Below, in pieces: positions 1 to 64,000 of a stretch of 64,000 nt of DNA. Within the stretch, counting starts at the first letter, position 1. Each line of letters starts with the position of its first letter. Under the pieces are notes generated by a model. The model worked only from the letters and a program-made list of their open reading frames with translations. It was not told the origin of the DNA and did no database searches. The position numbers were made by a program, and so were the translations under genes. This stretch comes from an uncultured Selenomonadaceae bacterium. GTDB taxonomy: Bacteria; Bacillota; Negativicutes; Selenomonadales; Selenomonadaceae. Where the stretch lies: positions 1 through 64,000 of the forward strand of contig CAJOHN010000011.1 of NCBI GenBank assembly GCA_905234235.1. Direction: 5' to 3'.

Positions 1-285
1 GTAGCGAGCCCTGCGCGAATATTCAAGCGCGTCGTTGTAACGTTTGGCTTGTGCAAAAGTCGTTGCGTCGAGATTCACGGAAGAATTTTTCTGTTCGACA
101 ATAACATTTGAGTCGGGAAAATAAACATCAATAAAACCGTGCGGAATCGGTACTTCAAAGCTGATAAATTCTTCCGGCTCGTCGATATTGAAAACGTCGC
201 GGATCAACGTTAGCCAAAACTTTTGATAATTGGCGCGTTCGCCGATGACGTTCGCCCATTGCTTAACAAATTCTTTTACGCTCAT
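1..285 (-). CDS. MmeI-like type IIG restriction-methyltransferase, N-terminal part (runs off left edge)
   Basis: Only the first 95 codons are in the window; no stop is seen. The start is the ATG at 283-285, behind a GGGAGG site, 12 bp after the mfd stop. The residues resemble the N-terminal nuclease domain of MmeI-like single-chain enzymes that combine DNA cleavage and adenine methylation: FWLTLIRDVF, then a PD-(D/E)xK signature with D53 (FIDVYF), E64 and K66 (VEQK), then FAQAKRYND. The D-x10-E-x-K spacing is close to that known for MmeI. The methyltransferase and target-recognition parts would lie left of the window. It could instead be a lone nuclease domain. Recognition is by eye from a short segment. 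Confidence 0.6.
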   Translation of the reverse strand, partial: MSVKEFVKQWANVIGERANYQKFWLTLIRDVFNIDEPEEFISFEVPIPHGFIDVYFPDSNVIVEQKNSSVNLDATTFAQAKRYNDALEYSRRARY

Positions 286-296
286 AAAAATCCTCC

Positions 297-3200
297 CTAT
301 CTGTTTAAAACCCTCAAAACGTTAAAAATTCGTGTCAGTAATTTATTTTTCGTCTTAAACATCAGGAAAATTCGTTTTGAATTCTCTATAAATTTAAAAT
401 CGCGTCGAAATACTCTTGAAAGTTCAATTATTCCCTGAGCAGAAATTTTTTCTACGTCATCAAAAATAATCTCGACGCGTAAATCTTTTTCGGTTATCGA
501 AGTCACAAATAAATTTTTCGCGGCAATTTTTATCCTCGCAACCATCAAAAGATTCTCCACTGGCTCCGTTATGTTCCCGAATCTATCTGTAAGTTCCTCA
601 CGCAGGTCTTTTACCTCTAAATCGTCCTTCACTACCGCTAATCGCCGATAAATTTCTATCTTGTCGCCCGCATTCGATATGTATTCGCGATTTATGAACG
701 CCTCAACCGGTAAATTGATTATCGGATCTGGTTTTTCGACGTTTTCAACCGTTTTATGCTGTAATTTGTTCACTGCTTCCTCTAAAAGTTGGCAATACAT
801 CTCAAATCCCACGCTCGCGATATGTCCATGCTGTTGTGCGCCTAATAAATTCCCCGCGCCGCGTATTTGCAGGTCTCTCATCGCAATTTTAAACCCCGCT
901 CCTAATTGTGCAAACTCTCGCATTGCTTGAAGACGTTTTTCAGCCGTTTCACTCAAAATTTTATCCGCTCGGTGCACAAAATACGCAAATGCCATGCGAC
1001 TTGACCTTCCAACGCGCCCTCTCATCTGATAAAGTTGCGCTAAACCGAAATTATCCGCGTCGTAAACAATAATTGTGTTCGCATTCGCCACATCAAGCCC
1101 ACTTTCGATAATTGTGGTCGTCAAAAGCAAATTAAATGCGCCCTCGTAGAAATTCATCATGATATTTTCCAAAAAATCGTTCGACATCTGCCCATGAGCC
1201 GTTTGAATCTTCGCTTCGGGCACTAATTCCGACAATCGGTCGCGCATTAAGTCTATCGTCTCGATTCGGTTATAAACGAAATAAATTTGTCCTCCGCGAC
1301 GAATTTCTCTGCGAATTGCCTCCGAAATTATAAAATCGTCGTCCTCAATCACATAAGTTTGAACCGGAAAGCGTTCAGCGGGCGCAGTTTCGATTAAACT
1401 CATATCACGCGCCCCGACAAGGCTCATATGTAAAGTTCTTGGAATCGGAGTGGCTGAAAGCGTTAAAACATCGACTCCGGCACTCAAAGCGCGAATTTTT
1501 TCCTTTTGTTTGACTCCAAAACGGTGTTCTTCGTCAATAATCAGCAATCCCAAGTCTTTAAACTGAATTTTTTTAGATAAAATAGAATGCGTGCCGATTA
1601 AAACGTCAATTTGCCCTGCGCGGACTTTTTGGAGAGTAATTCGCTGTTCTTTAGGCGTTCTGAAGCGACAAATCACATCGACGGTCGGCAAAAAGCCCGA
1701 AAATCGCTCTGAAAACGTTTGAAAATGTTGTTGAGCCAAAACAGTCGTCGGAACTAAAACTGCGCATTGTTTACCGTTCATAGCCGCCTTATAAGCCGCA
1801 CGAATCGCAATTTCAGTCTTTCCGAAGCCGACATCGCCGCAAATCAGCCTATCCATCGGTCTTTGGCGTTCCATATCGCGTTTAATATCGTTTACAGCTC
1901 GAATTTGGTCCGGAGTTTCTTCGTATGGGAAAGCGTCTTCAAATTCGCGTTGCGTAGCGTCATCAACATCAAAAGCAAAGCCTTGAGCCTTCTCTCGGCG
2001 TGCATAAATCTCCAAAAGTTTCTCTGCAATGTCTTCAACGGCGGCTGCGGCACGCGATTTAGCTTTAATCCAATCGCCGGAGCCTAAACGCGACAATTTC
2101 GGGACTGTATTATCGTCTGAAACATATTTTTGCAGATAATTAACCTGTTCGACTGGAATATAGAGTTTATCCGCGCCCGCGTACTGAATATGAAGAAAAT
2201 CTTTGCGTTGCCCGTTAAATTCGAGTGTTTCGACGCCTAAATATTTTCCGATACCGTTTTCGACGTGCACGACGTAATCTCCGGGCTTAATATCGCTGAA
2301 ATGTTTAATTCTCTCGCCCGAATCGGCAAATTTTTTATTTTTATAGCGATGAACTTGTCCGCCGAAGATATTTTTCTCAGTCAGGACGGTCAATTCTATA
2401 TTTGGGAGTGCAAAACCGTCGCTTAAATTGCCGAGCATAAAATTTACGCCGCGCAGATTATTTTCCTCGAAAAGTTTTTCTAAGCCGAGCATTTTAGATT
2501 GACTGCCGAATACGATAAAGATTTTTTGCCCTAAATCAATCAATCTGGACATTTCATCGAGGAAAAATTTAGTTTGCCCTTGAAAGTTAGTGATATTTGC
2601 GGCGTTGATACCGATATTTTCAGTCGGCTCAATGAATTTAATTTTTTTCAGCATGAGTTCGAGATAAACGAGACTTCCGGCGCGAGAACTCTTAACTAAA
2701 TCGGCGAATGTAAAAATATTTTTCTTAAGGTCGGGATTTTCGACGGTCAAATTGTGAATCGCCTCATAAATTCGTGCAGGTTCATCGAAAATAATGGTCT
2801 TACAGCAACTTAAAAATGGTTCACTAGTCTTTGAAAAGTTTTTAATCGGCAAAATGGTTACGGAGTTGATTTTTTTCTTAGTGCGGAGAGTTTCAGCGTC
2901 GATTTGGCGTAGTGAATCAATTTCGGTGTCGAAAAACTCAATTCTGCAAGGCGTAGGCTCATTAATCGGAAATAAATCGACGATACCGCCGTGAATGATG
3001 AATTTTCCGACTGAATCGAGTTCATCAGCGCGTTCGTAGCCAAATTCATTGAGTTTAGAAATAAATTTTTCGAGCGAAATATTTTGCCCGACCTCGATTT
3101 TCATTTGGAATTTCAAAAAATCTTGGCGCGAGAAATCTTTTTTGACTGCGGCGACGGTTGAGGCGAGTACAATTAAATTTTCGCCGCGCAGAAGTCTTGA

Positions 3201-3576: not shown

Positions 3577-3579
3577 TAT

Positions 3580-5851: not shown

Positions 5852-8800
5852 GCTTCCTTGCTAAAATCTTCTTAGCCAAAGTTGTCATGAGCTTGATTCT
5901 GTTAATTTGATTAACCTCGCTCGAACCAGCGTCACAATCAATCGCCACGACGTTTATATCATCAAAATTTTCTCTAAGGGCGTGCAAAGTTCCCTTCAAA
6001 ATGATGTGGTTGGGCAAGCAAGCAAACGGCGACAAACCGACGATATTTTTAATGCCGTTTTCAATCAGCTCGACCATTTCGCCCGTCAATAACCAACCCT
6101 CTCCCGACAAGTTCCCGCTACTTAAAAATTTATTGGCAAGCCGCGCAGTATGTTTAATATCGTTTGGAGCGCGGAAGTGTTTAGAACTTTTCAGGGCATT
6201 TTTCATCGGGAGGCGGAAAAATTCAATAAAGCTGATAAACAACTCGGCAAAAATTTTATCTTTGCGACTGCCGCCCAACAATTCATGCTTAACAATCGCG
6301 TCGTGAGCGCAATAAAGGAAAAAATCTACGAACGAAGGCATAATTACTTCTGCGCCTTCGTCGTGCAAAACTTTTTCCAAGAAATTATTCGCGACGGGGT
6401 GATATTTAACTAGAATTTCTCCGACAATGCCGACTTTGGGCTTTTGAACGTCGTTAATCGGTATCGCATCGAATTGGCGGACAATCTCCTTGATGTTGCG
6501 CCGATAACTCAAATAATTTCCGTCAACCAAATCAGCTTTGGCAAGCGTCATCCATTCCGCGAAAAGTTTATCGGTTTCTCCGCGATTAATTTCGTAAGGG
6601 CGCATACGATTGGAAACATTCATCAATAAATCACCGTAAACGGAAGCTTTAATCGAGTCCATAAGGCAATCGCGGCTGAGTTCAAAGGCGTCGGTCTCGT
6701 CAGGCAATCCGTAGCACGCAAAAACGGGAACTTGACCGAAACCGGCGAATTTTAAAGCTCTGCGCAGGACAGAAATATAATTTGTGGCGCGACAACCGCC
6801 GCAAGTCTGAAATAAAATTATCGACGTGTTATTTGGATCGCATTCGCCCGACTTCAAAGCCGCAATCATCTGCCCGGTAACGATTATTGCCGGGTAACAC
6901 ATCTCGTTGTTCACGAATCGAAGTCCCAAATCAATCGCCGCCTTATCGGGGAGCGCGGGAATCAAAATTTTGTAGCCGTACTTGTTTAAAACAGTTTTTA
7001 TAAGTTCAAAATGGATTGGTGCCATTTGCGGCGCGAGGATTGTATGTTTTTTCTTGCAATCGGCGGTAAAATGCGGGCGTTCTGGGAATTTTTTGGGCGA
7101 ATAGACGACGGAAGATTTTCTTTTAAGAGCGGCGAGCAACGAACGCAATCTGATTCGAGCCGCGCCCAAGTTTGAAACTTCGTCAAGCTTAATCATCGTA
7201 TAAATTTTGCCGTGCGTCTCCAAAATCTCTTTGACTTGTTCAATCGTGAGTGCGTCGAGCCCGCAACCGAACGAGCTTAGCTGAATCAGCGTGACATTTG
7301 GATTTTGGGCGGCGAACTGAGCGGCGTGATAAAGTCTTGCGTGATAACTCCACTGATTGACGACGGAAATTTGCGGCGCGTCAATTTTTGTATGATAAAC
7401 GGAATCTTCGGAGAGAATCGGCAAGCCGTAGGATTGAATCATTTCAGAAATTCCGTGATTTATTTCGGGGTCGACGTGATAAGGGCGTCCGACGAGTAAA
7501 ATTACATGTTCGCCGCTATTTTTTATGCGTTGCAAGAGATTTTCGCCGAAAGTCTGAACGTCGCGGCGATAATTTTCCATTTCAGCCGCCGCCTTATCGA
7601 CTGCGCGGGAAATTTCATCAGAATTGACGCCTTCTGATTTAAATTCTTCGGCGAGACGCTTTTTTAATTTCTTCATGTCGTGGACGGGCAGGAACGGTTG
7701 AATAAATTTAATGCCGCGTTCCTTGAGAATGTCCATATTGTTGCGGATATTTTCGGGATAACTGGCGACAATCGGGCAGTTGTAAAAATTATCGGAGCGT
7801 GTATCAAAATTATATGGCTCGCAAGGATAAAAAATCTTTTTCAAGCCGCGTTCGACCAAATCCATAACGTGACCGTGCGCCAATTTCGCGGGATAACAGA
7901 GCGAATCGCTGGGAATCGTCGCCATGCCCTTATAAAAAATCTGCGCGGAGGACTTGGAAGAAATTTCGACGCGATAACCGAGTTCAGTCAAGAGCGTAAA
8001 CCAAAAAGGATAGTCTTCATAGATATTTAACGTTCTCGGAATGCCGATTGAGCCACGCTTGGGATTTTCCAACGGTTGATAATCGAAAAGCCGCTGATAT
8101 TTATAGGCAAAGGCGTTTAGAATTTCGGATTGAGCTTTGGGCTTGCCTCCGACGCCGCGCTCACAACGATTGCCCGTAAAATATTTGTCGCCGTCAGGGA
8201 ATTTCTGCATGGTTATCAAACAATTATTGCCGCAACGCCCGCAACGATAAGATTTCGTGACGACGGAGAAATTTTCCAATTCATCAGCCGTCAAAAGCTT
8301 TGAATCGCCCGCGCAGTTTTCTTTAGCGAGAATCGCCGCGCCATACGCTCCCATAAGCCCGGCAATGTCGGGACGAATAACATTTTTATGAAGAATCTCC
8401 TCAATCGAACGTAAAACGGCGTCATTGTAAAACGTGCCGCCCTGCACAACGATATTTTCGCCCAAATCTTCGACGTTTTTAAGTTGCATAACCTTAAAAA
8501 GCGCGTTTTTAATGACGGAAAGGGCAATGCCCGCCGAAATGTCGTTGACGGTTGCGCCTTCCTTCTGAGCCTGTTTAACTTTGGAATTCATAAAAACTGT
8601 ACAACGCGTGCCCAAATCGACGGGCGCGGAAGAATTCAGAGCTTTTTTGGCAAAATCGCCGACCGTCATGTTCAAACCCTGCGCGAAATTCTGGATAAAA
8701 CTTCCGCAACCCGCCGAGCAAGCCTCATTGAGCGTGATATTTCCGATTGAGCCGTCCTTGACGAAGAAACATTTCATATCTTGCCCGCCGATGTCCAAAA

Positions 8801-10037
8801 CAAAAGAAACGTCGGGGCAAAATTCCTGCGCGGCGGTCAAATGGGCAAAAGTTTCGACTTCGGAGCCGTCGGCATGAAGAGCGGCTTTAACAATCGCCTC
8901 GCCGTATCCCGTCGTGAACACGCCGCCGATTTTTGCAGTCGTGGGAAGATTTTCGTAGAGATTTTTAATTTGATTGACGACGATTTTAAGCGGCGCACCT
9001 TCATTCGAGCCGTAATTGGTATAAAGAATCTGTTTATCGTCGCCAATCGCGCAGATTTTGGTTGTGGTTGAGCCGGCGTCAATGCCGACGAAAATTTTTC
9101 CGCGATAACTTTGCAAATCGCCGCGTTTGACTTTATCTTTATCGTGCCGAGCCCGAAAAGTTTCCAAGTCCGCCGCGTCTTTGAACAAAATAAAATCAGT
9201 CTTGTAAGTTTCGGAGCGTGCCGCCTCATCAGACTTTTTAATTGATTCTTCGAGCTGTTTAACGGAAATTTCTTTAGCCTCGTCGCTGAGAGCCGCGCCC
9301 GTTGCCACAAAAAAATTTCCGTCGGGCGTGTCGACGACTTCACTTTGAGAAAGTCCGAGCGTCTCGACGAATCTTTTCTTGAGTTCGGGCAGAAAATGCA
9401 AAGGTCCTCCCAAAAACGCGACGTTGCCCGCAATCGGACGACCCTGCGCAAGATTTCCGATTGTCTGATTGACGACCGCTTGAAAAATCGACAGGGCAAT
9501 ATCCGCCTTCTTCGCGCCGTCGTTCATGAGGGCTTGAATATCGGTTTTGGCGAACACGCCGCAACGTGAAGCAATCGTGTAAATCTGCTTGCCCTTTTCC
9601 GCCAGTGAATTTAAGCCGAGCGCGTCCGTTGACAGCAAACTTGCCATGTGGTCGATAAAGCTTCCTGTGCCGCCCGCGCAGACGCCGTTCATTCGGACTT
9701 CAGGCGCGTTGCCGAGATAAATAATCTTCGCGTCTTCGCCGCCGAGTTCAACGACAGTATCGGTCTGCGGAATAAATTCTTCGACAGCACGTTGACAGGC
9801 GATAACCTCCTGCACAAATGGCAACGAAATTTTTTTTGCAATGCCCATACCCGCCGAGCCAGCCAACGCAATATTAAAAGTTTTCTCGCCGATGATGTCT
9901 TTCAGCGACGTTAAAGAATTTGTGAGCGCGTTTCCAATCTCCGAGAAGTGTCGCGCATAATTTTTAAAGACAAGCCGTTCCTCGTCCATGACGACAAGCT
10001 TTATCGTCGTGGAGCCGATGTCTATTCCGACTTTCAT
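5844..10037 (-). CDS. Giant acyl-CoA dehydratase activase-related protein (BcrA/BadF/HgdC ATPase repeats plus DUF2229)
   Basis: At 1397 residues this is the large fused form of the 2-hydroxyacyl-CoA dehydratase activase family. Two ASKHA-type ATPase modules are visible: one from residue 1 (VGIDIGSTTIKL, with VCAGGTGSFIDHM) and one from about 310 (VGIDAGSTTTK, with EACSAGCGSFIQNF). The cysteines in these turns hold the bridging 4Fe-4S cluster in true activases. A CGRCGNNC...CERG cysteine cluster and the DUF2229 region (GIPRTLNIYEDYPFW) follow, with a dehydratase-like C-terminal part. True activases feed an ATP-energised electron to a two-subunit dehydratase, but no such subunits are adjacent, so the substrate is unknown. 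The start is ATG 10035-10037 behind GAGGTG. It has its own promoter. Confidence 0.88.
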   Translation of the reverse strand: MKVGIDIGSTTIKLVVMDEERLVFKNYARHFSEIGNALTNSLTSLKDIIGEKTFNIALAGSAGMGIAKKISLPFVQEVIACQRAVEEFIPQTDTVVELGGEDAKIIYLGNAPEVRMNGVCAGGTGSFIDHMASLLSTDALGLNSLAEKGKQIYTIASRCGVFAKTDIQALMNDGAKKADIALSIFQAVVNQTIGNLAQGRPIAGNVAFLGGPLHFLPELKKRFVETLGLSQSEVVDTPDGNFFVATGAALSDEAKEISVKQLEESIKKSDEAARSETYKTDFILFKDAADLETFRARHDKDKVKRGDLQSYRGKIFVGIDAGSTTTKICAIGDDKQILYTNYGSNEGAPLKIVVNQIKNLYENLPTTAKIGGVFTTGYGEAIVKAALHADGSEVETFAHLTAAQEFCPDVSFVLDIGGQDMKCFFVKDGSIGNITLNEACSAGCGSFIQNFAQGLNMTVGDFAKKALNSSAPVDLGTRCTVFMNSKVKQAQKEGATVNDISAGIALSVIKNALFKVMQLKNVEDLGENIVVQGGTFYNDAVLRSIEEILHKNVIRPDIAGLMGAYGAAILAKENCAGDSKLLTADELENFSVVTKSYRCGRCGNNCLITMQKFPDGDKYFTGNRCERGVGGKPKAQSEILNAFAYKYQRLFDYQPLENPKRGSIGIPRTLNIYEDYPFWFTLLTELGYRVEISSKSSAQIFYKGMATIPSDSLCYPAKLAHGHVMDLVERGLKKIFYPCEPYNFDTRSDNFYNCPIVASYPENIRNNMDILKERGIKFIQPFLPVHDMKKLKKRLAEEFKSEGVNSDEISRAVDKAAAEMENYRRDVQTFGENLLQRIKNSGEHVILLVGRPYHVDPEINHGISEMIQSYGLPILSEDSVYHTKIDAPQISVVNQWSYHARLYHAAQFAAQNPNVTLIQLSSFGCGLDALTIEQVKEILETHGKIYTMIKLDEVSNLGAARIRLRSLLAALKRKSSVVYSPKKFPERPHFTADCKKKHTILAPQMAPIHFELIKTVLNKYGYKILIPALPDKAAIDLGLRFVNNEMCYPAIIVTGQMIAALKSGECDPNNTSIILFQTCGGCRATNYISVLRRALKFAGFGQVPVFACYGLPDETDAFELSRDCLMDSIKASVYGDLLMNVSNRMRPYEINRGETDKLFAEWMTLAKADLVDGNYLSYRRNIKEIVRQFDAIPINDVQKPKVGIVGEILVKYHPVANNFLEKVLHDEGAEVIMPSFVDFFLYCAHDAIVKHELLGGSRKDKIFAELFISFIEFFRLPMKNALKSSKHFRAPNDIKHTARLANKFLSSGNLSGEGWLLTGEMVELIENGIKNIVGLSPFACLPNHIILKGTLHALRENFDDINVVAIDCDAGSSEVNQINRIKLMTTLAKKILARKLK

Positions 10038-12438: not shown

Positions 12439-12467
12439 AAGTTATAGTTAAATCTGCGCGGTGTCAA
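12439..12467 (-). promoter_or_regulatory. Predicted promoter of the TadG-like gene
   Basis: On the minus strand a perfect TTGACA (12462-12467) has TAACTT at 17 bp (12439-12444) or TATAAC at 15 bp (12441-12446). An AAGGAG site follows. Confidence 0.5.
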
Positions 12468-13032: not shown

Positions 13033-13461
13033 TCAATGTGTACGCTCCAACAAAATTTTGAACGCTTCATCCGCCGTCTGAAACTTTATCTCCGAACGCG
13101 TGCCCGTAAAATGAAACTCCTTGACATCAGCAAAATCCGCGCCCGCTATCGCAATAAAAACCGTGCCAACATCTTTGCCCTCGCTCTTATCGGGACCGGC
13201 AACGCCTGTCGTACTCATTCCAAACGTCGAATCAAAAATCTCGCGGACATTTTTAGCCATTGCCAACGCCGTCTGCGAACTCACTGCGCCAAATTTTTCT
13301 AACGTTTCTTTATCGACGCGCAGAATTTTATTTTTTATCTCGTTCGTGTAGGCAACCACGCCACCCTTAACATAATTCGACGCGCCCGCGAAGTCCGTTA
13401 ATCGGCTCATCAACAGCCCGCCCGTACATGACTCCGCGCAGGCTATAGTAAATTTTTCCAA
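13033..13461 (-). CDS. cinA: CinA C-terminal domain protein, nicotinamide-nucleotide amidase (PncC-type)
   Basis: The 142-residue protein is the stand-alone CinA C-terminal domain, which deamidates NMN to nicotinate mononucleotide in pyridine nucleotide recycling. It shows CAESCTGGLL near the N-terminus, GGVVAYTNEIK, VSSQTALAMA and TGVAGPD, all standard for the family. The N-terminal CinA domain of about 250 residues is absent. I use TTG 13459-13461, placed 10 nt after GGAGAGG and directly behind the rimO stop. A longer frame back to 13497 would run inside rimO. It lies in the same direction as rimO and the secreted unknown. Confidence 0.9.
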   Translation of the reverse strand: MEKFTIACAESCTGGLLMSRLTDFAGASNYVKGGVVAYTNEIKNKILRVDKETLEKFGAVSSQTALAMAKNVREIFDSTFGMSTTGVAGPDKSEGKDVGTVFIAIAGADFADVKEFHFTGTRSEIKFQTADEAFKILLERTH

Positions 13462-17217: not shown

Positions 17218-17228
17218 GAATTTTCGAC

Positions 17229-17268
17229 AAAAAAAATCTCCCGACCAAATTGCATCGGGAGTTTTTTT
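17229..17268. terminator. Bidirectional terminator between fabF and rpoC
   Basis: The stem CTCCCGA/TCGGGAG (17238-17244 with 17255-17261) is flanked by eight A on the left and seven T on the right, so it can end transcription of both convergent units. It resembles the sstT terminator. Confidence 0.85.
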
Positions 17269-17282
17269 ATGGATTGTTAAGT

Positions 17283-25708: not shown

Positions 25709-25712
25709 GAAT

Positions 25713-35805: not shown

Positions 35806-35828
35806 TGCAAAATCCCCTTCCGCGCAGA

Positions 35829-38199: not shown

Positions 38200-38250
38200 T
38201 TTAGGGGTCGGGTGTCAGGGACTAGGGGTTTTAATCCCTGTCCCCTGAAC

Positions 38251-40594: not shown

Positions 40595-40635
40595 AATTTT
40601 TGCCGTCGATAAAAAATATTTGGGAGGGAGTGGCG

Positions 40636-50496: not shown

Positions 50497-50543
50497 CTGC
50501 GCGGGAAATTTACAGTCAAAAAATTTTGGAGGTAGAAGAGAAT

Positions 50544-54686: not shown

Positions 54687-57059
54687 TTATTTTATGGTGA
54701 CAAGCGTCGCGCCCGTGCCGCCTTCGTCTTGGTCGGCGAATTGAAAACCGGCAACCGAATTATTGCCGCGCAGATAATCTTGCACGCCCTTGCGAAGTGC
54801 GCCCGTCCCCTTGCCGTGAATTATCAGAACTTGCTTAAGTCCGGAAAGTTGCGCGTCGTCGATGAATTTGCCGCAAATTTGTTCCGCCTCGTCAACCGTC
54901 ATGCCGCGAATATCGATACTGCGCATAACGTTCGCAACTTTCTGCAAAAGCCCCGTCGAACCGCGATTTTGATTATACGTTGGCGAAAAATTTTCCTGCG
55001 AATTGTGACTGACGAAGCGACAAGACGAAGTTTTAACGGTCGTCCGCATTGCGCCGATTTGAACGCTGAGTTCGTCGCCGTCCTTTTCAATCGCAAGCAC
55101 TGTGCCCTTTTGGTCAAGCGGCTTGATATAAACGGTGTCGCCGACAAAAATTTTTTTCTTGTCAATGCGCGTGCCGACGTATTTATCGGCGATAATGCCC
55201 GTCGCGGATTCAAGTTCCGTCTCGCGAAGTTTATCGCGTGCCTGCTGAATGACTTGCTGACGACGTTTAACGCCCGCGTCATCGAATTGTTCTTTGAGGG
55301 CGGCGATAATTTCTTCAGTCTCGCGCTTAGTCTCGCGAACCATTGCGGCAGATTTTTCCTTAGCCTTGCGAATAATTTCGCCCTTAGTCTTGGCAATTTC
55401 GTCGCGCATCTCGGCGATTTTTTTCTCGTGCTTGATGACTTGTTGCTGACGTTCAAAAATTTCGGCGTTGCGCTGTTCAAAAAGCATTCGTTGACTTTCA
55501 AGCTCGGAAATAATTTTTTCAAAATTAGCGTGGTCGGCGGTGATAAGTTGTTTAGCGCGGAGAATCAAACTCTGCGGAAGTCCCAAGCGTTGACTGATTG
55601 CAAAGGCGTTGCTCGCGCCGGGAATTCCAATTAACAATCGATAAGTCGGGCGCAAAGTTTCAGAATCAAATTCGACGCAAGCATTTTCAATCCCGTCCGT
55701 CGAGTAAGCAAAAGTTTTCAGTTCGGAGTAATGAGTTGTGGCGATAGTCGCCGCGCCGATTTCCAACAGCCGTTCGAGGATTGACATAGCCAACGCCGCG
55801 CCCTCGTCGGGGTCGGTACCTGCGCCGATTTCGTCGAGCAGAACCAAATCGCTTGCCGTCACGTCGTCGAGAATCGCAACGATTTTTTTCATGTGCGCCG
55901 AGAAAGTCGATAAGCTCTGTTCAATGGATTGTTCGTCGCCGATGTCCGCAAAAATATTCGTGAACACAGCAATTCGCGAGCCGCTTGCCGCCGGAATGTA
56001 AAGCCCCGTCTGCGTCATAAGCGCGAGAAGCCCGAGCGTCTTCATGGAAACGGTTTTGCCGCCGGTATTCGGACCGGTAACTAAAAGCATTGAAAAAATT
56101 TCGCCGAGTTGAATGTCAATCGGAACGACGCTTGCCGAATCAATCAGCGGGTGCCGCGCAGATTTTAAGTCGGTGAAATTTTCGAGAATCGGCTCCGTAG
56201 CGTTGAGGTCGCGGGCGAGTTTTGCTTTGGCGAATAATAAATCAACGTCCGCCAAAATTTTAATGTTGTTAGTGAGCGCGTCGAGATTTTTTCTGACGGC
56301 GTCGCTTAAATTCCTTAAAATCCTCATGACTTCGTGACGTTCGGCGGCTTCCAATTCCTTGACGCTGTTATTTAAGTTGACGACGGCGAGCGGTTCGATA
56401 AACACAGTCGCGCCGGTCGCTGATTGGTCGTGAACAATGCCGGGAAACTGCGCCTTATATTCAAGCTTGACGGGCAAAACGTATCTGTCGCCGCGCATCG
56501 TGACAATCGCATCTTGGAAAAATTTTTGCTTACCGGCGTCGTGGAGGATATTAAAAATTTCGTTCTTGATTTTATTTTGAGCCCCGCGCAGGTCTCGGCG
56601 AATTTTTTGGAGTTCGACGCTGGCGGTATCGCGAACGGTTCCGTGTTCGTCAATAGCGTTATCCAGTTGGCGTTCCAAGTTCCCAAGAATTTCAATCTCT
56701 GTGGCGCGAGCTTTAAGTTGCGGAGCGTCGGCGTCAGTTTCCTTGAAAAAATTTTTAACTTGCCGCATTGCGTACATAGTCGACAGCACGTCAAGGAGTT
56801 CTTCGGCGTCGGCGACACTTCCCAATTTTATTTTTTTAAACGTCTCGCGAACGTCGCAGAAACCTCCGAGCGGCGGCGAACTTACTGCGAAAATTTTAAC
56901 AGCCTCCGTCGTCAACGATAAATTTTCTTTAACGGTATCGAAATCATCGGCGGGCTGAAGTTTTATTGCCAGCTCCTTACCAAAAGTACTTGTCGCACAA
57001 TCTCGGAGCCGCGCCAGAATTTTATCAAACTCAAGTGTCTTGAATGAAGTCTTCAGCAT
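54687..57059 (-). CDS. mutS2: Endonuclease MutS2
   Basis: A 790-residue MutS2 with the ATPase core GPNTGGKTVSMKTLG, LLDEIGAGTDPDEGAALA, ATTHYSELK, a coiled coil at about 510-630, and a C-terminal Smr nuclease domain with SIDIRGMTVDEAEQ and IIHGKGTGALRKGV. It suppresses recombination and rescues collided ribosomes in Firmicutes. The start is ATG 57057-57059 behind GAAGGA. It leads the operon mutS2-TRAP permease-membrane protein and has a promoter that faces and overlaps that of the glycosyltransferase. Confidence 0.96.
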   Translation of the reverse strand: MLKTSFKTLEFDKILARLRDCATSTFGKELAIKLQPADDFDTVKENLSLTTEAVKIFAVSSPPLGGFCDVRETFKKIKLGSVADAEELLDVLSTMYAMRQVKNFFKETDADAPQLKARATEIEILGNLERQLDNAIDEHGTVRDTASVELQKIRRDLRGAQNKIKNEIFNILHDAGKQKFFQDAIVTMRGDRYVLPVKLEYKAQFPGIVHDQSATGATVFIEPLAVVNLNNSVKELEAAERHEVMRILRNLSDAVRKNLDALTNNIKILADVDLLFAKAKLARDLNATEPILENFTDLKSARHPLIDSASVVPIDIQLGEIFSMLLVTGPNTGGKTVSMKTLGLLALMTQTGLYIPAASGSRIAVFTNIFADIGDEQSIEQSLSTFSAHMKKIVAILDDVTASDLVLLDEIGAGTDPDEGAALAMSILERLLEIGAATIATTHYSELKTFAYSTDGIENACVEFDSETLRPTYRLLIGIPGASNAFAISQRLGLPQSLILRAKQLITADHANFEKIISELESQRMLFEQRNAEIFERQQQVIKHEKKIAEMRDEIAKTKGEIIRKAKEKSAAMVRETKRETEEIIAALKEQFDDAGVKRRQQVIQQARDKLRETELESATGIIADKYVGTRIDKKKIFVGDTVYIKPLDQKGTVLAIEKDGDELSVQIGAMRTTVKTSSCRFVSHNSQENFSPTYNQNRGSTGLLQKVANVMRSIDIRGMTVDEAEQICGKFIDDAQLSGLKQVLIIHGKGTGALRKGVQDYLRGNNSVAGFQFADQDEGGTGATLVTIK

Positions 57060-57143: not shown

Positions 57144-58133
57144 ATGGACAGAATTACAATCATCGTGCCCTGCTACAACGAGGAGGAAGTTATCGAGCTG
57201 TTTTATCCGGCGGTGCAAGTTTGCGTTGAAAAAATTCCCAACAGCGAGTTCAATTATATTTTCGTAGATGACGGCAGTCGCGACAACACTTTGAATAAAC
57301 TCCGCGAACTTTCCGCGAATCATGACGACGTTAGTTACATCAGCTTATCGCGGAATTTTGGTAAGGAAGCGGCGATGATGGCGGGCATTGATTTTGCTGA
57401 CGGCGACGCGGTGATAATTATGGACGCCGACCTCCAACACCCGCCCGATAAAATTCCGGAGATGATTAGTTACTGGCGCGCGGGCTTTGATGATGTTTGC
57501 GGCAAACGTATCGACCGCGCAGGTGAAACTTTTCTCAAGCGCAGTTGTGCGAATATTTTTTATGCGGTTATGAAGAAATTCAGCACGTCTTACGAAATGC
57601 AACGCGACGTTGGCGATTTCAGATTGCTTGACAGGCGTTGTATCGAGGCGTTAAAACTTATGCGCGAGAATCAGCGATTTACTAAAGGTTTATTCACGTG
57701 GGTTGGCTATCGTAAAAAAGAAATACCGTTTGAAGTCCGCCCGCGAGCCGCAGGAACTACGACGTGGAATTATTTTGCGCTGTTCAACTTGGCGATGAAA
57801 GGCATGACATCATTCACGACCGCGCCGCTGAGATTGATGACGTTTCTTGGAATGATAATTTCTTTTGGCGCGATGCTGTACATGTTTTTTGTATTGGCGA
57901 TGGCGATTTTATACGGCGACCCTGTTGCGGGCTACCCGACGCTGATGACGGTAATGTTATTTCTCGGCGGGATACAAATTTTATCGCTGGGGATAATCGG
58001 CGAGTATTTGGGGCAAATTTTCCACGAGAGCAAACGCCGCCCGATTTATTTAGTTGATGAGATTGACGGCAAGCGCATGATGTATGCGTCGCGATTTGTG
58101 CCGACGGAGCGCAATGCAAAGTTTAGGGAGTGA
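57144..58133 (+). CDS. Family 2 glycosyltransferase (dolichyl-phosphate mannosyltransferase-like)
   Basis: A 329-residue GT2 enzyme with two C-terminal membrane helices. The catalytic domain shows IIVPCYNEEEVIELF, FVDDGSRDNT, SRNFGKEAAMMAGIDFA, MDADLQHPPDKIPEM, and DFRLLDRR; helices lie at about 235-255 and 265-290. This is the layout of undecaprenyl-phosphate sugar synthases such as CsbB and GtrB, which load a sugar on the lipid carrier for wall or LPS modification. ATG 57144 follows GGAAGGCG. The stop overlaps the next start by four bases. Confidence 0.92.
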   Translation: MDRITIIVPCYNEEEVIELFYPAVQVCVEKIPNSEFNYIFVDDGSRDNTLNKLRELSANHDDVSYISLSRNFGKEAAMMAGIDFADGDAVIIMDADLQHPPDKIPEMISYWRAGFDDVCGKRIDRAGETFLKRSCANIFYAVMKKFSTSYEMQRDVGDFRLLDRRCIEALKLMRENQRFTKGLFTWVGYRKKEIPFEVRPRAAGTTTWNYFALFNLAMKGMTSFTTAPLRLMTFLGMIISFGAMLYMFFVLAMAILYGDPVAGYPTLMTVMLFLGGIQILSLGIIGEYLGQIFHESKRRPIYLVDEIDGKRMMYASRFVPTERNAKFRE

Positions 58134-59374
58134 TAAAAATTTTTACGGAACGATTGCTTGACTTAAAAAAAACTGTACTCGCTGAAGTCGCGGAGAATTT
58201 TAAACGTGTCGAAGAAATTTCTGAGTGCAATACGTTAAAAGTTTTGGACGCGATGCGGCGGCTTAAAATTTCTGATGTGCATTTCAAAACGTCAACGGGC
58301 TATGCATACGGAGATATTGGGCGCGAGAAATTGGACGAACTTTTTGCCGAGATTTTCTGCGCGGAGGCGGCGTTGGTTCGGACGCAATTTGTATCGGGCA
58401 CACACGCATTGGCGACGGCGTTATTTGGAATACTTCGCCCCGATGATGAATTGGTTTCGTTGACGGGCGCGCCTTACGACACATTGCAGACGGTTATCGG
58501 GCACGCGCACGCCGCTAAAGGTTCGCTTAAAGAGTTTGGAATTTCTTACCGCGAGTTGCCGCTGATTAATGGCAAAGTCGACGTTGCCGCGATTAAAAAT
58601 TTCATCACGCCCAAAACTAAAATGGCATTGATTCAACGTTCGCGGGGATATTCAATGCGCGACCCGCTTACAACTTTTGACATTGAAAAAATCTGCGCGG
58701 CGGTTAAGGCGGCTAATCCTGCTTGCGTGACGTTCGTTGATAATTGTTACGGCGAATTTGTCGAGACGCGAGAGCCTATTGAAGTCGGCGCGGATTTGGC
58801 GGCGGGCAGTTTGATAAAAAATATTGGCGGCGGCTTGGCTCCGACGGGCGGCTATATCGTCGGCAAAAAAGATTTGATTGAATTGGCGTCGTATCGATTG
58901 ACGGCACCGGGCATGGGCAACGAATTAGGCGCGAGTTTGGGGACACCACGACTTTTGTATCAAGGATTATTCATGGCTCCGCACGTGACCGCGCAGGCGT
59001 TGAAGGGCGCGATATTTGCGGCGGGGATTTTTTCAAAGCTCGGCTATCAAACTCGACCGTTGCCCGAAGAAATACGCGGCGATATAATTCAAGCGGTTGA
59101 GTTACGTTCGGCGGAGCGGCTGATAAAATTCTGTCAAGCGATACAAAAATTTTCGCCGGTAGATTCATTTGCCATTCCTGAGGCGTGGGACATGCCGGGC
59201 TACGAGGACAAAGTTATCATGGCGGCTGGGACGTTTGTACAAGGCGCGTCGATTGAACTGTCGGCGGACGCCCCGTTGCGCGAACCTTACACGGTTTATT
59301 TGCAAGGCGGCTTGACGTTTGAACACGCGATGATTGGAATTTTAGGCGCGGCGCAGGAGTTGGAAAATTTGTGA
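58130..59374 (+). CDS. Methionine gamma-lyase family protein (aluminium-resistance type)
   Basis: A 414-residue PLP enzyme of the Met_gamma_lyase (YnbB) family. It has STGYAYGDIGR, VRTQFVSGTHALATALFGIL, SLTGAPYDTLQ, the aspartate in VDNCYGEFVE and the PLP-lysine region SLIKNIGGGLAP. The family cleaves sulfur amino acids or cystathionine-like compounds; the exact reaction is not established here. The start is given as GTG 58130, overlapping the glycosyltransferase stop (GTGA), but the AGGGAG directly touches it, so a start a few codons later is possible. The stop overlaps the next gene. Confidence 0.88.
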   Translation: MIKIFTERLLDLKKTVLAEVAENFKRVEEISECNTLKVLDAMRRLKISDVHFKTSTGYAYGDIGREKLDELFAEIFCAEAALVRTQFVSGTHALATALFGILRPDDELVSLTGAPYDTLQTVIGHAHAAKGSLKEFGISYRELPLINGKVDVAAIKNFITPKTKMALIQRSRGYSMRDPLTTFDIEKICAAVKAANPACVTFVDNCYGEFVETREPIEVGADLAAGSLIKNIGGGLAPTGGYIVGKKDLIELASYRLTAPGMGNELGASLGTPRLLYQGLFMAPHVTAQALKGAIFAAGIFSKLGYQTRPLPEEIRGDIIQAVELRSAERLIKFCQAIQKFSPVDSFAIPEAWDMPGYEDKVIMAAGTFVQGASIELSADAPLREPYTVYLQGGLTFEHAMIGILGAAQELENL

Positions 59375-60063
59375 CGGAATTTCATTTCGCGGGAATTGGG
59401 ACGCTGATTAACGTCGTTGGGATTTTTATTGGCGGGCTGATTGGATTATTCGGCGGGAAATTTTTAACTGCGAAGATTCAAAAGACATTACAAGACGCCT
59501 GCGCATTGGCGGTAATTTTTCTTGGCGTCGACGGTGCGCTGAAAAATTTGGACACGATGCTTTTAATCGCGAGTTTGATTGGCGGCGGGCTTATCGGAGA
59601 AATCATTGACATTGACGGCAAGTTTGAACGGTTTGGAATTTGGCTCCGTAATCGTTCGGGCAATGACGGCGATACTAAATTTGTTGATGCGTTTGTGACG
59701 GCGTCGCTGACTGTTTGCATTGGTGCGATGGCGGTTATCGGCGCGATTAACGACAGACTTTTGAACGACGCCACGATTTTAATTGCCAAAGCCGCGCTTG
59801 ACTCGATTATAATTTTGGTGATGACGGCGAGTCTCGGCAAGGGCTGTATATTTTCTTGCGTGAGCGTCGGGATTTTTCAAGGCGCGATAACTTTCTGCGC
59901 GGGTTTTCTCGAACCGTTTATGACGGAAATTGCGCTGGCTAATCTGTCGAGCATAGGGAAAATTTTAATTTTTGCCGTCGGAGTTAATTTGCTTTTACCG
60001 AGTAAAAAAATTTCCGTCGCGAATTTTTTGCCCGCGCTGATTATCGCTTGTTTATGGAGGTAA
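59371..60063 (+). CDS. DUF554 family membrane protein (YqgA-like)
   Basis: A 230-residue protein with six or seven membrane segments, including GTLINVVGIFIGGLIGLFGG at the start, AVIFLGVDGAL, LTVCIGAMAVIGAINDRL and a late KILIFAVGVNLLLP. The pattern matches DUF554, which is of unknown function, perhaps a transporter. GTG 59371 overlaps the previous stop (GTGA). It is the third of four tightly linked genes. Confidence 0.88.
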   Translation: MTEFHFAGIGTLINVVGIFIGGLIGLFGGKFLTAKIQKTLQDACALAVIFLGVDGALKNLDTMLLIASLIGGGLIGEIIDIDGKFERFGIWLRNRSGNDGDTKFVDAFVTASLTVCIGAMAVIGAINDRLLNDATILIAKAALDSIIILVMTASLGKGCIFSCVSVGIFQGAITFCAGFLEPFMTEIALANLSSIGKILIFAVGVNLLLPSKKISVANFLPALIIACLWR

Positions 60064-60067
60064 TGAC

Positions 60068-60517
60068 ATGACAAAAATAATTTTCGTTTGCTTCGGGAAT
60101 ATTTGCCGTTCGCCGATGGCGGAGTTTGTTATGAAACATTTAGTCGCCCGCGCAGGTTTGGAGAAAAATTTTCTGATTGAATCGGCAGGCTGTCACGCCG
60201 CAGTTGGGACGCCGTTATCAGAGGGCACGGCTCGCGAACTTAAGAAAAATAATGTACCGTTCACGCGCCGCACGTCCAAACTTTTGACGGCTGAAGATTA
60301 TTCGCGTTTCGATTATCTTATTGGGCTTGACCGCTCTAACGTCCGCGATATGAAGGATATTTGCGGCGGCGACCCCGATAAAAAAATTTTCCTAATGATG
60401 GATTTTGCGGGCGAACATCGCGACGTTGACGACCCTTACTACACCGACGATTACGCCGCCAGTTACCGAGATATTTTGATTGGTTGTAAGGCTTTGCTTG
60501 CTATTGCCGAGAAATAA
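60068..60517 (+). CDS. Low-molecular-weight protein-tyrosine phosphatase
   Basis: A 149-residue phosphatase with the P-loop C8-FGNIC-R14-S (VCFGNICRSPMAEF) and the general acid in DVDDPYYTD. Such enzymes often control bacterial tyrosine kinases in capsule and polysaccharide export, which fits the glycosyltransferase at the head of the operon, but an arginine-phosphatase role is also known in the family. ATG 60068 follows GGAGG. The stop codon is directly adjacent to the convergent radA stop, leaving no room for a terminator. Confidence 0.93.
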   Translation: MTKIIFVCFGNICRSPMAEFVMKHLVARAGLEKNFLIESAGCHAAVGTPLSEGTARELKKNNVPFTRRTSKLLTAEDYSRFDYLIGLDRSNVRDMKDICGGDPDKKIFLMMDFAGEHRDVDDPYYTDDYAASYRDILIGCKALLAIAEK

Positions 60518-61879
60518 TTATGTGCGCGGCATAGAAATTTTAAGAGCATCGCGGAGATTTTCAGCGGGCAAAAGATTTACTGTAGATAACTTTGAAAGCT
60601 CTGCGAAATTTTTTTTAGGCAGGATAATATTCGTGAAGCCCATGCGAATTGATTCTTCGACGCGCTGGCGAGCTTTGCTGACGGCTCTGACTTCGCCGCT
60701 CAATCCGACTTCGCCGAAGATAACGCATTGCGGCAAAAGTTTTCTGTTCGCGAAACTCGACGCCAAAGCAATCGCAATCGGTAAATCAGTCGCGGGCTCA
60801 TCAATTTTAATCCCGCCCGCCGTCTTAACATAAACGTCGCAAGCTCCAATGCTAAGGTGCAATCTTTTTTCCAACACCGCCAGCAAAAGTTGAATCCGTT
60901 TGATGTCGACGGCGTCTGAAGTTCTGCGCGGCGGCATGAAGGGCGTTGGCGCAACGAGGGCTTGAACTTCGACGAGAAGCGGGCGCGTCCCCTCGACAGT
61001 CGGAACAATCACGCTACCAATATCATCAGCGCGTTCCGGTAAAAATAACTTCGAGGCGTCGGGCACATCTTCCAAACCCGTGTCGCGCATTTCAAACAAG
61101 CCAATTTCGCTCGTCGCGCCGAATCTATTTTTTATCGCCCGTAAAACTCGGAAGTCGGCATTGCGTTCGCCCTCGAAAAATAAAACCGTGTCGACGATAT
61201 GCTCAAGAACTCTCGGACCGGCGAGGCTCCCGTCTTTAGTAACGTGCCCGATAACAAACGTCGTGACGCCCAAACTTTTTGACATCCGCATTAAACCCGC
61301 TGAACATTCGCGCACTTGCGACACAGAGCCCGGCGCACTTTCAATTTCGGTTTTGTAAATGGTTTGGATTGAATCGACGATTAAAAGTTCGGGCTGAAGT
61401 TTCTCGACGTGGTATTTGATTCGTTCAAAATTATTTTCCGCGCAGATAAAAAGTTCATCGGCGAGCGCGTTCAAACGTTCGGCACGCATTCTTATCTGCC
61501 GCGAACTTTCCTCGCCCGTCACGTACAAAACTTTTTTCCCGCCGCGAGCAACGTTAGCACAAACCGCCAGTGTTAAACTCGACTTGCCGACGCCCGGATC
61601 TCCCGCGATTAAAATTATCGAGCCCGGTATCAAGCCGCCGCCTAAAACTCTATCCAATTCGCCCGAACCCGTCATGAAACGCGGCAACTCTTCCATATCG
61701 ACTTCGGCAATCCTGCGCGGAATTTCAAAGTTCGTCAGCGCGTGAGGATTTTTTATATCGTCAGCAATTTCTTCCTCAACGAGCGTATTCCAATTACCGC
61801 ACGCGGGGCATTTGCCGAGCCACTTAACCGACTCCGCTCCGCATTCTTGACAAACATATTTAACTTTTTTCTTAGCCAT
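60518..61879 (-). CDS. radA: DNA repair protein RadA
   Basis: RadA drives branch migration in recombination. The 453-residue protein has the N-terminal zinc finger CQECG...CPACG, Walker A GDPGVGKSSL, the RadA signature KNRFG and the Lon-type C-terminal domain with GGIKIDEPATDLPIAIALASS. Start ATG 61877-61879 has GGAGG upstream. It is monocistronic in this window and lies tail to tail with the phosphatase gene. Confidence 0.97.
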   Translation of the reverse strand: MAKKKVKYVCQECGAESVKWLGKCPACGNWNTLVEEEIADDIKNPHALTNFEIPRRIAEVDMEELPRFMTGSGELDRVLGGGLIPGSIILIAGDPGVGKSSLTLAVCANVARGGKKVLYVTGEESSRQIRMRAERLNALADELFICAENNFERIKYHVEKLQPELLIVDSIQTIYKTEIESAPGSVSQVRECSAGLMRMSKSLGVTTFVIGHVTKDGSLAGPRVLEHIVDTVLFFEGERNADFRVLRAIKNRFGATSEIGLFEMRDTGLEDVPDASKLFLPERADDIGSVIVPTVEGTRPLLVEVQALVAPTPFMPPRRTSDAVDIKRIQLLLAVLEKRLHLSIGACDVYVKTAGGIKIDEPATDLPIAIALASSFANRKLLPQCVIFGEVGLSGEVRAVSKARQRVEESIRMGFTNIILPKKNFAELSKLSTVNLLPAENLRDALKISMPRT

Positions 61880-61962: not shown

Positions 61963-62973
61963 TTGGAACGCTACGAACACGGCGGGCAAATTTACGATTC
62001 GGCGGGCAATGCGGGCGATTGGCTTGACTTCAGCGCGAATATCAATCCGCTTGGCTTATCGGAAAAAATTTTGCGGACGCTTACTGAAAATCTGCGCGGC
62101 GTCGTGAATTACCCCGACCCTAATGCCGCTGAACTTAAACGCGCCATTTCAAATCGTTACGACGTGCCCGAAAATAATTTGGTTTTACTCAACGGCGCGG
62201 CGGAATTTTTTTATCTGTATTTTAACGCGACGCGTCCAAAGCGTGTGATAATTCCGGTTCCGAGTTTCAGCGAATACGAACGAGCGGCGAGAGCGGCTTG
62301 TTGCGACGTTGAATTTTTTATCACAAAGCCGGAAGAAAATTTTTCATTGGATGTTGAAAAGCTCCGCGCAGATTGTGTGATACTTGGTCGCCCTAATAAT
62401 CCGACGGGCAATTTAATTTCGTTGGAAAAAATTTTACAGCTAGCCGAAGTCGCAAGCGTTGTGGTTGACGAATCTTTTATCGATTTTATTAACGTTGAAT
62501 CGGCTAGAAAATTTATCTCGGAAAAAATTTCTGTGGTGCAGTCGTTGACAAAAATTTTCGCGATACCGGGCTTGAGGCTCGGCTTTGCAGTCGTCGAAGG
62601 AAATTTGGCTCGGCGATTAAATTTATCAAAGGACGTTTGGAATGTAAATTTCTTAGCACAAAAAGCGGGCGTCGCGGCGTTATCCGATGAAGATTTTTTA
62701 CGGCGAACACGCGCTTGGCTCGCAACCGAGAAAAAATTTTTTATCGAACGGCTGGGCAATCTGCGCGGAGTAAAAATTTTCCAACCGTCGGCGAACTTTA
62801 TTCTGTTCAAACACGAACGCGCCGAAGAAATTTTGGATTCATTACGCCGAGAAAAAATTTTGCTGAGGAGTTGCGCGAACTTTGCGGGGCTTGATAAATT
62901 TTATCTGCGTTCGGCGATTAAATCACGAGAGGAGAATCTGCGCCTGTTCAATGCTCTGGAAAAAATTTTTTAA
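61963..62973 (+). CDS. cobD: Threonine-phosphate decarboxylase-like aminotransferase (CobD/HisC family)
   Basis: A 336-residue class I PLP enzyme. It opens with HGGQIYDSAG and LDFSANINPLGLS, a beginning typical of CobD, which makes aminopropanol phosphate for cobalamin. It has NYPDPNAAELK, GRPNNPTGN and the PLP lysine in SLTKIFAIPGLRLGF. CobD and histidinol-phosphate aminotransferase look alike; the N-terminus favours CobD. No other cobalamin gene is in view. TTG 61963 follows GGGAG by 9 nt. The downstream cation-efflux gene begins inside its last codons. Confidence 0.8.
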   Translation: MERYEHGGQIYDSAGNAGDWLDFSANINPLGLSEKILRTLTENLRGVVNYPDPNAAELKRAISNRYDVPENNLVLLNGAAEFFYLYFNATRPKRVIIPVPSFSEYERAARAACCDVEFFITKPEENFSLDVEKLRADCVILGRPNNPTGNLISLEKILQLAEVASVVVDESFIDFINVESARKFISEKISVVQSLTKIFAIPGLRLGFAVVEGNLARRLNLSKDVWNVNFLAQKAGVAALSDEDFLRRTRAWLATEKKFFIERLGNLRGVKIFQPSANFILFKHERAEEILDSLRREKILLRSCANFAGLDKFYLRSAIKSREENLRLFNALEKIF

Positions 62974-64000
62974 CTTATCGACGCGCGAGGGCTACGGTCA
63001 ATTCGTGAGCGTCGCGGGCATTTGCGTAAACATTTTACTGAGCGTCGTCAAGCTGATTATCGGGCTTTTGAGCGGCGCGATTTCGATTATCGCCGATGCC
63101 TTCAACAATCTTTCCGACGCTGGGACTTCCGCAGTAATGTTGGCGGGATTTAGGATAGCCGCGAAGCCTGCCGATGAAGAACATCCATTTGGGCACGGGC
63201 GCGCGGAATATCTAGCGGGATTGTTCATAGCGGCGGCGATGATTTTAGTTGGCGGCGAGCTCCTTCACTCTTCCGTAAAAAAAATGATCGAACCCGAAGC
63301 TTTGAACGTCGACGGAATAACTTTGCTTGTGCTGAGTTTATCGGTTGCGGCGAAATTTTTCTTGGGAATATTTTATCGACATGCGGCGCGAAAAATAAAT
63401 TCGGCGGCGATAGCAACGGCGGCTCTCGATAGTTTTACTGACTGCCTCGCGACGGGTGTTGTGATTATTTCCGTCGTCACGTGGATAAATTTTGGCGTGA
63501 ACATTGACGGCGGCGCGGGAATTTTTATTGCGGCGTTTATACTGCGCGGCGGTTTGACTTCGTTAAAAGAAATTTTAAATCCTCTGCTTGGCGACAGAGC
63601 GAGCCCCGAACTTATTGACGGCATAAAAAAAATTGTCACGAACACGCCCGAAGTTTTAGGCGTCCATGACTTGATTGTCCACAGTTACGGCGCGAACAGA
63701 ATTTTTGTTTCGATGCACGTTGAAATGCCCGCGACCTTGAAACTTTTGGCGGCGCATGAAATTGTTGACCGCCTCGAAAAGAAACTTCAATCGACGTTTC
63801 AAATTTCAGTGACGTTGCACATTGATCCCGTCGTCATTGGCGATAAGGCTTTTGATGAGCACAAGGAGCTTGCCGAAAAAATTTTGTACGATATTGATTC
63901 GCGATTGTCGTTGCATGATTTTAGAATTGTGCCGTACAAGACGGGCAGGAAGTTAATTTTCGACGTGGCAGTCCCTTGGAATTTTTTAATGAACGACCGC
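62951..64000 (+). CDS. Cation diffusion facilitator family transporter (truncated by right edge)
   Basis: The frame is open from ATG 62951 to the window end (350 codons, no stop). It has a first helix after EGYGQFVSVAG, the metal-site helix ADAFNNLSDAGTS, HPFGHGRAEYLAGL, the second site AALDSFTDCLAT, and a cytoplasmic domain with VHDLIVHSYG and VTLHIDP. Family members export divalent cations such as zinc, iron or manganese; the HNLSD histidine is an asparagine here, a form seen in manganese-type members. No good ribosome site precedes the ATG (GAGAGGAG lies 16 nt away), and it overlaps the upstream gene by 23 bp. Confidence 0.88.
   Translation, partial: MLWKKFFNLSTREGYGQFVSVAGICVNILLSVVKLIIGLLSGAISIIADAFNNLSDAGTSAVMLAGFRIAAKPADEEHPFGHGRAEYLAGLFIAAAMILVGGELLHSSVKKMIEPEALNVDGITLLVLSLSVAAKFFLGIFYRHAARKINSAAIATAALDSFTDCLATGVVIISVVTWINFGVNIDGGAGIFIAAFILRGGLTSLKEILNPLLGDRASPELIDGIKKIVTNTPEVLGVHDLIVHSYGANRIFVSMHVEMPATLKLLAAHEIVDRLEKKLQSTFQISVTLHIDPVVIGDKAFDEHKELAEKILYDIDSRLSLHDFRIVPYKTGRKLIFDVAVPWNFLMNDR

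Follow-up and report, generated by a model that had tools for sequence, protein, structure and literature searches.

Uptake words, short sequences that bias natural transformation towards self DNA, are described as known from only two families of Proteobacteria, the Neisseriaceae and the Pasteurellaceae (PMC12616744). In the account of PMC3630211, the DNA uptake sequence (DUS) of the Neisseriaceae is a non-palindromic word in thousands of copies, linked to a type IV pilus machinery, with dialects that differ by a few bases and follow phylogeny and with some relatives lacking the word; the uptake signal sequence (USS) of the Pasteurellaceae is a short word that occurs about once per kb in two versions. 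Here we describe a comparable octamer, CTGCGCGG, in a stretch of 64,000 nucleotides (hereafter the window: positions 1 to 64,000 of contig CAJOHN010000011.1, assembly GCA_905234235.1) from an uncultured Selenomonadaceae bacterium, the host. Over its best segment, rpoC has 75% identity to the genes of Mitsuokella and of Selenomonas ruminantium RUG14411, and 73% to that of Pectinatus, which places the host in the class Negativicutes, the outer-membrane Firmicutes. We consider that CTGCGCGG probably serves, at a likelihood of roughly 0.68, as the self-DNA uptake sequence in a genus of this class that would be naturally transformable, outside the two families named above. The octamer shares with the DUS and USS the features just listed, and differs from the USS, whose uptake bias has been mapped for Haemophilus (PMC7811141), in word and lineage, and from the DUS in word and phylum, in lacking an excess of close inverted pairs, and in having only a candidate for the counterpart of the receptor ComP.

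Exact counting recovered 64 copies in the window, 36 on the forward and 28 on the reverse strand; a first-pass annotation of the window had given 35 and 27, and all 28 coordinates that it listed are right. The copies, each an exact match, are:

1616..1623, forward, CTGCGCGG copy
7601..7608, forward, CTGCGCGG copy
7941..7948, forward, CTGCGCGG copy
8826..8833, forward, CTGCGCGG copy
12454..12461, forward, CTGCGCGG copy, intergenic
14079..14086, forward, CTGCGCGG copy
14225..14232, forward, CTGCGCGG copy
24345..24352, forward, CTGCGCGG copy in the gene preceding rpoC (rpoB by place and size)
25948..25955, forward, CTGCGCGG copy
26128..26135, forward, CTGCGCGG copy
26413..26420, forward, CTGCGCGG copy
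27773..27780, forward, CTGCGCGG copy
28275..28282, forward, CTGCGCGG copy
29859..29866, forward, CTGCGCGG copy
31572..31579, forward, CTGCGCGG copy
32961..32968, forward, CTGCGCGG copy
33033..33040, forward, CTGCGCGG copy
36308..36315, forward, CTGCGCGG copy
36354..36361, forward, CTGCGCGG copy
38805..38812, forward, CTGCGCGG copy
38835..38842, forward, CTGCGCGG copy
40199..40206, forward, CTGCGCGG copy
44057..44064, forward, CTGCGCGG copy
47015..47022, forward, CTGCGCGG copy
49869..49876, forward, CTGCGCGG copy
50497..50504, forward, CTGCGCGG copy, intergenic
51148..51155, forward, CTGCGCGG copy
53632..53639, forward, CTGCGCGG copy
58357..58364, forward, CTGCGCGG copy
58693..58700, forward, CTGCGCGG copy
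59895..59902, forward, CTGCGCGG copy
60924..60931, forward, CTGCGCGG copy
61713..61720, forward, CTGCGCGG copy
62092..62099, forward, CTGCGCGG copy
62761..62768, forward, CTGCGCGG copy
63542..63549, forward, CTGCGCGG copy
2449..2456, reverse, CTGCGCGG copy
3184..3191, reverse, CTGCGCGG copy
6141..6148, reverse, CTGCGCGG copy
8309..8316, reverse, CTGCGCGG copy
9674..9681, reverse, CTGCGCGG copy
13434..13441, reverse, CTGCGCGG copy
16151..16158, reverse, CTGCGCGG copy
17123..17130, reverse, CTGCGCGG copy
31285..31292, reverse, CTGCGCGG copy
32756..32763, reverse, CTGCGCGG copy
35820..35827, reverse, CTGCGCGG copy
37799..37806, reverse, CTGCGCGG copy
38502..38509, reverse, CTGCGCGG copy
40414..40421, reverse, CTGCGCGG copy
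45036..45043, reverse, CTGCGCGG copy
45453..45460, reverse, CTGCGCGG copy
45485..45492, reverse, CTGCGCGG copy
46266..46273, reverse, CTGCGCGG copy
50363..50370, reverse, CTGCGCGG copy
52150..52157, reverse, CTGCGCGG copy
54766..54773, reverse, CTGCGCGG copy
56154..56161, reverse, CTGCGCGG copy
56584..56591, reverse, CTGCGCGG copy
57515..57522, reverse, CTGCGCGG copy
58989..58996, reverse, CTGCGCGG copy
60148..60155, reverse, CTGCGCGG copy
61438..61445, reverse, CTGCGCGG copy
62364..62371, reverse, CTGCGCGG copy

Over both strands, 1.3 copies are expected from base composition and 3.3-3.5 from Markov models of orders 1-3, giving an excess of ~49-fold and ~18-fold respectively; the earlier figure of about thirty times is thus an overstatement with respect to the Markov models. 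Models of orders 5 and 6 give higher expectations, 25 and 44, since they already hold most of the motif. The word is non-palindromic, differing from its complement, and together the two have the highest z-score of all window 8-mers at Markov orders 1-3 (z ~33). Its genome-wide count, on which the first-pass annotation had made its claim of over-representation depend, is likewise not near expectation, with 1,022 + 985 = 2007 copies in the assembly (2,148,753 bases in 46 contigs), or ~1 per kb, against 145 + 133 copies of the reversed word as a control.

Reading frames, codon use and spacing were analysed in 500 kb of the host genome, consisting of the window and 23 further stretches, with genes called by our own script. 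The word lies both within genes (460 copies, 1.04/kb) and between them (51 copies, 0.88/kb, including those at 12454 and 50497, which had been placed there before), and the genic copies occupy all three frames in both orientations, with 24 to 131 copies per class, extending to six frames what had been seen for a few. When synonymous codons were shuffled within genes over 20 rounds, 37.6 +/- 5.1 copies were expected and 463 observed, a twelve-fold excess. The reversed word also exceeded its shuffled expectation (71 observed vs 26.8, about 2.7-fold), and therefore some of the excess, about 2.7-fold, may be general. Some frames do encode common peptides (LRG in 87 and AAQ in 58 of the 460), as would be expected if the word simply arose from the composition of codons, codon pairs or proteins. 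However, the shuffle refutes within-gene codon usage as its source, and a codon-pair model acting across six frames at once is implausible, though none was fitted; with the intergenic copies added, a compositional origin appears extremely improbable, in keeping with the earlier statement that codon use alone does not explain the word.

The base immediately upstream of the octamer is T in 310, C in 138, A in 63 and G in 0 of 511 copies, and this exclusion of G indicates that the recognised unit exceeds eight bases. Given that A also occupies positions -2 and -3 in 52% of 532 copies, the fuller motif is better written as A-A-(T/C)-CTGCGCGG, its upstream side being rich in A; the USS likewise has an A/T-rich flank. 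The remaining flanks are nearly random, and the word is therefore not a mobile repeat. The absence of a clear strand bias, already suspected from the window, holds for the genome (p = 0.42 for the above counts) and also relative to the gene strand (216 vs 244, p = 0.21), and the proposed comparison with replication direction revealed no correlation between GC skew and word orientation (29 stretches, rho -0.09, p = 0.63). Local strand differences lie below binomial expectation (chi-square 13.1, 29 degrees of freedom), orientation thus being more balanced than chance, and neighbouring copies alternate strand slightly (277 vs 220, p = 0.012). Spacing is near random (coefficient of variation 1.005, 497 gaps), with gaps below 100 bp at 5.4% vs 10% expected, and two of the 497 gaps exceeding 7.2 kb where random placement would give ~0.25 (an estimate from the mean gap). 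One of these is the 7.2-kb gap across rpoC and most of rpoB (17131-24344), whose emptiness is real, as is that of the TadG-like gene at 40600-43623, both as first described. The gene first labelled HNH was not identified: another motif-free gene, coding for 730 amino acids at 10104-12296, had no Pfam match at E <= 1e-4. The TadG-like protein encoded at 40600-43623 matches PF13400 and is of the Tad pilus type. Among the 511 sites, three of the 11 pairs closer than 60 bp are inverted; the words are therefore not generally terminator stems, and inverted pairs as terminators were rejected for want of an excess.

Both CTGCGCGG and a word differing from it in the last base, CTGCGCGA, were counted in 66 genomes of the host genus. 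By thresholds of our own, 25 are G-type (CTGCGCGG-carrying), 7 A-type (CTGCGCGA-carrying; G004, G006, G019, G025, G034, G035 and G078 in our numbering), 18 weak or mixed, and 16 carry neither. The CTGCGCGG/CTGCGCGA counts are 2007/306 in the host and 2103/356 in G010, 123/2206 in G004 and 170/2335 in G006, and 3/11 and 5/5 in the motif-poor G013 and G008. After synonymous control, CTGCGCGG is the top 8-mer in samples of G000, G010, G012, G017 and G023, and CTGCGCGA in those of G004, G006, G025 and G034; CTGCGCGA ranks second in G035 and falls outside the top five in G019. In the same scan CTGCGCGG was not seen in the very small samples of two G-types, G015 and G022 (3 and 4 genes called), and neither word was among the top 8-mers of the outgroup samples G038, G046 and G051; samples of G009, G032 and G033 (0 genes called) and of G013 (6) were uninformative, like those of G015 and G022. 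A 25-row rpoC tree includes three of the seven A-type genomes, which form one clade with support 100/100; G-types lie on both sides of it (G016 and G026, labelled G-type in the tree, are weak or mixed by count). The word thus has lineage dialects one base apart that follow phylogeny. Motif-poor genomes are scattered in the tree, so that losses look repeated, if these lineages indeed once had the word. Across 23 genomes from 21 other families of the class, CTGCGCGG occurs in 2 to 378 copies, all far below the host density and at most 7.7 times the control word (G044: 3 vs 0).

Aligning host genes codon by codon with those of relatives allowed individual copies to be followed. In four G-type genomes the host word is kept exactly, above background, at 42 of 92 aligned sites: 12/27 in G017 (control 27%), 7/11 in G012 (19%), 10/20 in G010 (20%) and 13/34 in G023 (9%). 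Six A-type genomes have it at 3 of 102 sites (controls 8-14%), with CTGCGCGA aligned at 17 of the 102, covering 9 of 63 distinct host sites; these are contributed by G006 (7), G004 (5), G035 (2) and G019, G025 and G034 (1 each), and the 17 alignments are not independent because of the kinship among these genomes. The G-type comparisons have CTGCGCGA at 1 of 92 host sites, and five motif-poor genomes retain the exact word at 0 of 63 (controls 3-7%). Hence a copy can hold its place when the dialect changes, only its last base being different; genomes that use neither word had no exact copies at the aligned sites. In A-type comparisons the protein flanking the copies shows lower conservation than the mean of the gene (0.670 vs 0.718, p = 0.0002), with the same direction and no significance in G-type (p = 0.31) and motif-poor (p = 0.15) ones.

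Other words also surfaced in the genus. G003, which branches off first among the congeners in the rpoC tree, is without both words and has CAGATCC 134 times vs 36 expected in genes, which is possibly another dialect or a coding effect. In G021, GCCCGTGA-like words are over-represented by the Markov model and outside the top five after synonymous shuffling; both are weaker candidates than CTGCGCGG and CTGCGCGA. Words resembling AAAATTT and CCGATAA/GCCGATAA also exceed the synonymous-shuffle expectation in several congener samples.

A competence system, which had been suggested as something to look for, is represented in the host by type IV pilus and DNA-uptake genes (C and L numbers are our handles for contigs and loci):

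C15, L253:9110-10252, GspE/PilB-like ATPase, scoring below the NCBIfam cut-off for PilB
C29, L254:10136-14950, PilT-like ATPase (above the NCBIfam cut-off for PilT), PilC-like protein (T2SSF), FtsE and four small pilin-like genes (the last at L254:13032-14950)
L254:12305-13027, ftsE, between the pilC-like and pilin-like genes
C8, L283:5159-6628, PilQ/GspD-like secretin, PilQ score below the NCBIfam cut-off
C8, L255:8879-11173, ComEC, above the NCBIfam cut-off
C18:51008, DprA
C5:49704, ComEA-like HHH_3 protein in a 194-codon frame

The four pilin-like genes were recognised from N-termini read by eye. The same placement of ftsE is seen in G017, and in G004 ftsE adjoins pilC. Two T2SSE ATPases on C13 of G000 are CpaF/TadA-like in look, and further secretins occur on C13 and C33. 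Among 60 genomes searched, 58 matched ComEC, 56 DprA, 57 a secretin and 58 HHH_3, the secretin and HHH_3 tallies including Tad-type secretins and other HHH proteins.

The first pilin of the host operon is our candidate for the receptor that would read the word. It has 154 amino acids, a type IV pilin N-terminus and the C-terminal end FDSVGRFRGGREEP (GRxR), and is present in 61 of the 66 congeners; a PDB profile search recovered weak matches to the pilin N-terminus (best E 0.02), and no Pfam or NCBIfam family scored above cut-off. In these features it recalls FimT, whose conserved C-terminal GRxR is reported to contribute arginines to DNA binding (PMC8897410), and differs in lacking a family match above cut-off and in that GRxR is not universal in the genus, being found in 29 of 36 pilin sequences read. 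By eye, the tails of A-type pilins are R-G-(S/T/N)-Y in 5/5 read (those of G019 and G035 were unread) and in 0/31 others; as the A-type looks like one clade, this tail may be a single event.

These observations are those expected of an uptake sequence: a non-palindromic word at ~1 per kb, far above Markov and synonymous-shuffle expectation, genic and intergenic, indifferent to strand and replication, in a host with uptake-type genes, which do not themselves discriminate. The parallel to DNA uptake sequences first drawn from the window therefore stands for density, strand neutrality, frames, dialects along the tree and competence-type genes, and from these we infer uptake itself. We propose that a type IV pilus bears a minor pilin that would bind DNA and prefer word-carrying fragments, which would be drawn in by pilus retraction through the PilQ/GspD-like secretin, retained by ComEA, imported as one strand by ComEC and recombined by DprA/RecA. 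Because word-bearing fragments would be taken up and recombined more often, copies would build up in both orientations at tolerant sites by molecular drive. A shift of receptor preference in one lineage could turn copies into CTGCGCGA, a dialect, and loss of specificity or of transformation would let them decay. It is an even bet that the full scenario holds, namely a third independent origin of sequence-specific DNA uptake, in outer-membrane Firmicutes, in which a FimT-like minor pilin reads AA-Y-CTGCGCGG and a receptor change in one clade gave CTGCGCGA genome-wide, with about a quarter of the genus (16/66) without either. Within the class, Veillonella parvula is naturally competent (PMC5397411). 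Among the papers searched, nothing joined a DNA uptake sequence or uptake signal sequence to Negativicutes, nor an uptake sequence to Selenomonas and transformation, and a sample of the papers in which the letters CTGCGCGG occur looks unrelated from title and opening of the abstract.

Several observations weigh against an uptake sequence. The authors of the Veillonella parvula study considered it unlikely that their species has an uptake word (PMC5397411). What an uptake sequence would predict for conservation, for permissive regions and for inverted pairs is taken from PMC2397512; close inverted pairs show no excess here, unlike in Neisseria. In a weak test of core against accessory genes, motif density did not differ between genes with and without relatives in our samples (212 of 409 genes being without a relative in the sampled sequence). 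The 18 weak or mixed genomes of the 66 are not predicted by a clean dialect model. Most motif-poor congeners and outgroups also match ComEC, DprA, secretin and HHH_3, all four being matched in the motif-poor G003, G007, G008, G013 and G028, so that the gene set does not predict who has the word. DprA had no match in the strongly A-type G006 (99% complete) or in the G-type G036, and ComEC none in G002 (80% complete) and G011 (70% complete). Finally, the G-types G023 and G002 have GRWSG in place of GRxR, and among 30 of the 36 pilin sequences (leaving aside G006, G004, G025, G034, G023 and G002) the presence of GRxR was not significantly related to motif excess (p = 0.25); a loss of GRxR tracking loss of the motif was therefore not supported, and for this reason the pilin is named as a candidate only.

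Among readings without uptake, the HIP1 repeat of cyanobacteria, the other parallel first drawn from the window, is likewise an over-represented octamer within and between genes, of unknown function. A repeat of this kind might be maintained through DNA modification, through mismatch repair or through a mutational bias, and the sequence statistics on which the case for uptake is built would suit it too. However, the form does not fit, as HIP1 is a palindrome and CTGCGCGG is not, and we know of no dialect clade for HIP1, whereas here a clade-wide one-base switch and an extended upstream preference excluding G at -1 suggest a reading protein; a HIP1-like origin is thus unlikely. Chi sites, the recombination hotspots read by RecBCD/AddAB during repair, are also short, frequent, non-palindromic and variable between lineages, and a Chi-like role would fit the abundance and shared sites. 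They are usually skewed to one replication strand, whereas CTGCGCGG has no skew locally or genome-wide and an orientation more balanced than chance, making this role quite unlikely.

The spread over the genome at about one per kb might alternatively suggest that the word is a site for a protein that organises or segregates the chromosome (KOPS-, matS- or nucleoid-protein-like). The orientation unrelated to GC skew and the near-random spacing speak against it, as does the copy number, which far exceeds that of known segregation sites, and we regard it as very unlikely. Taken together, the Chi-like, HIP1-like and chromosome-organising readings hold a real but minor share of the probability.

Apart from the octamer, the host has intergenic tandem repeats of 7 bp (units ATTAGGG, TCAGGGT, CCCTGAA and CCCTAAC) and one 14-bp unit, CCCTAAAACCTAAT:

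window 25676-25709 and 38250-38312, tandem repeats
L094:11629-11649 and 14354-14374, tandem repeats
L096:13415-13442, tandem repeat

In the 500 kb, every array with 3 or more exact copies of a 5-12 bp unit is of unit 7 and intergenic (4/4), and one tandem array sits just 3' of a tRNA-Arg gene. They recall the heptamer repeats of filamentous cyanobacteria.

If CTGCGCGG is indeed an uptake sequence, it would add to the two known cases a third from a distant phylum, for which 66 genomes cover both dialects as well as intermediates and absences. With these one could ask whether drive or benefit spreads uptake words and how receptor and word change together, and they would form a natural series in which the rise, switching and death of a self-recognition code could be followed. 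The word could also offer a practical route to the transformation of intractable gut Negativicutes.

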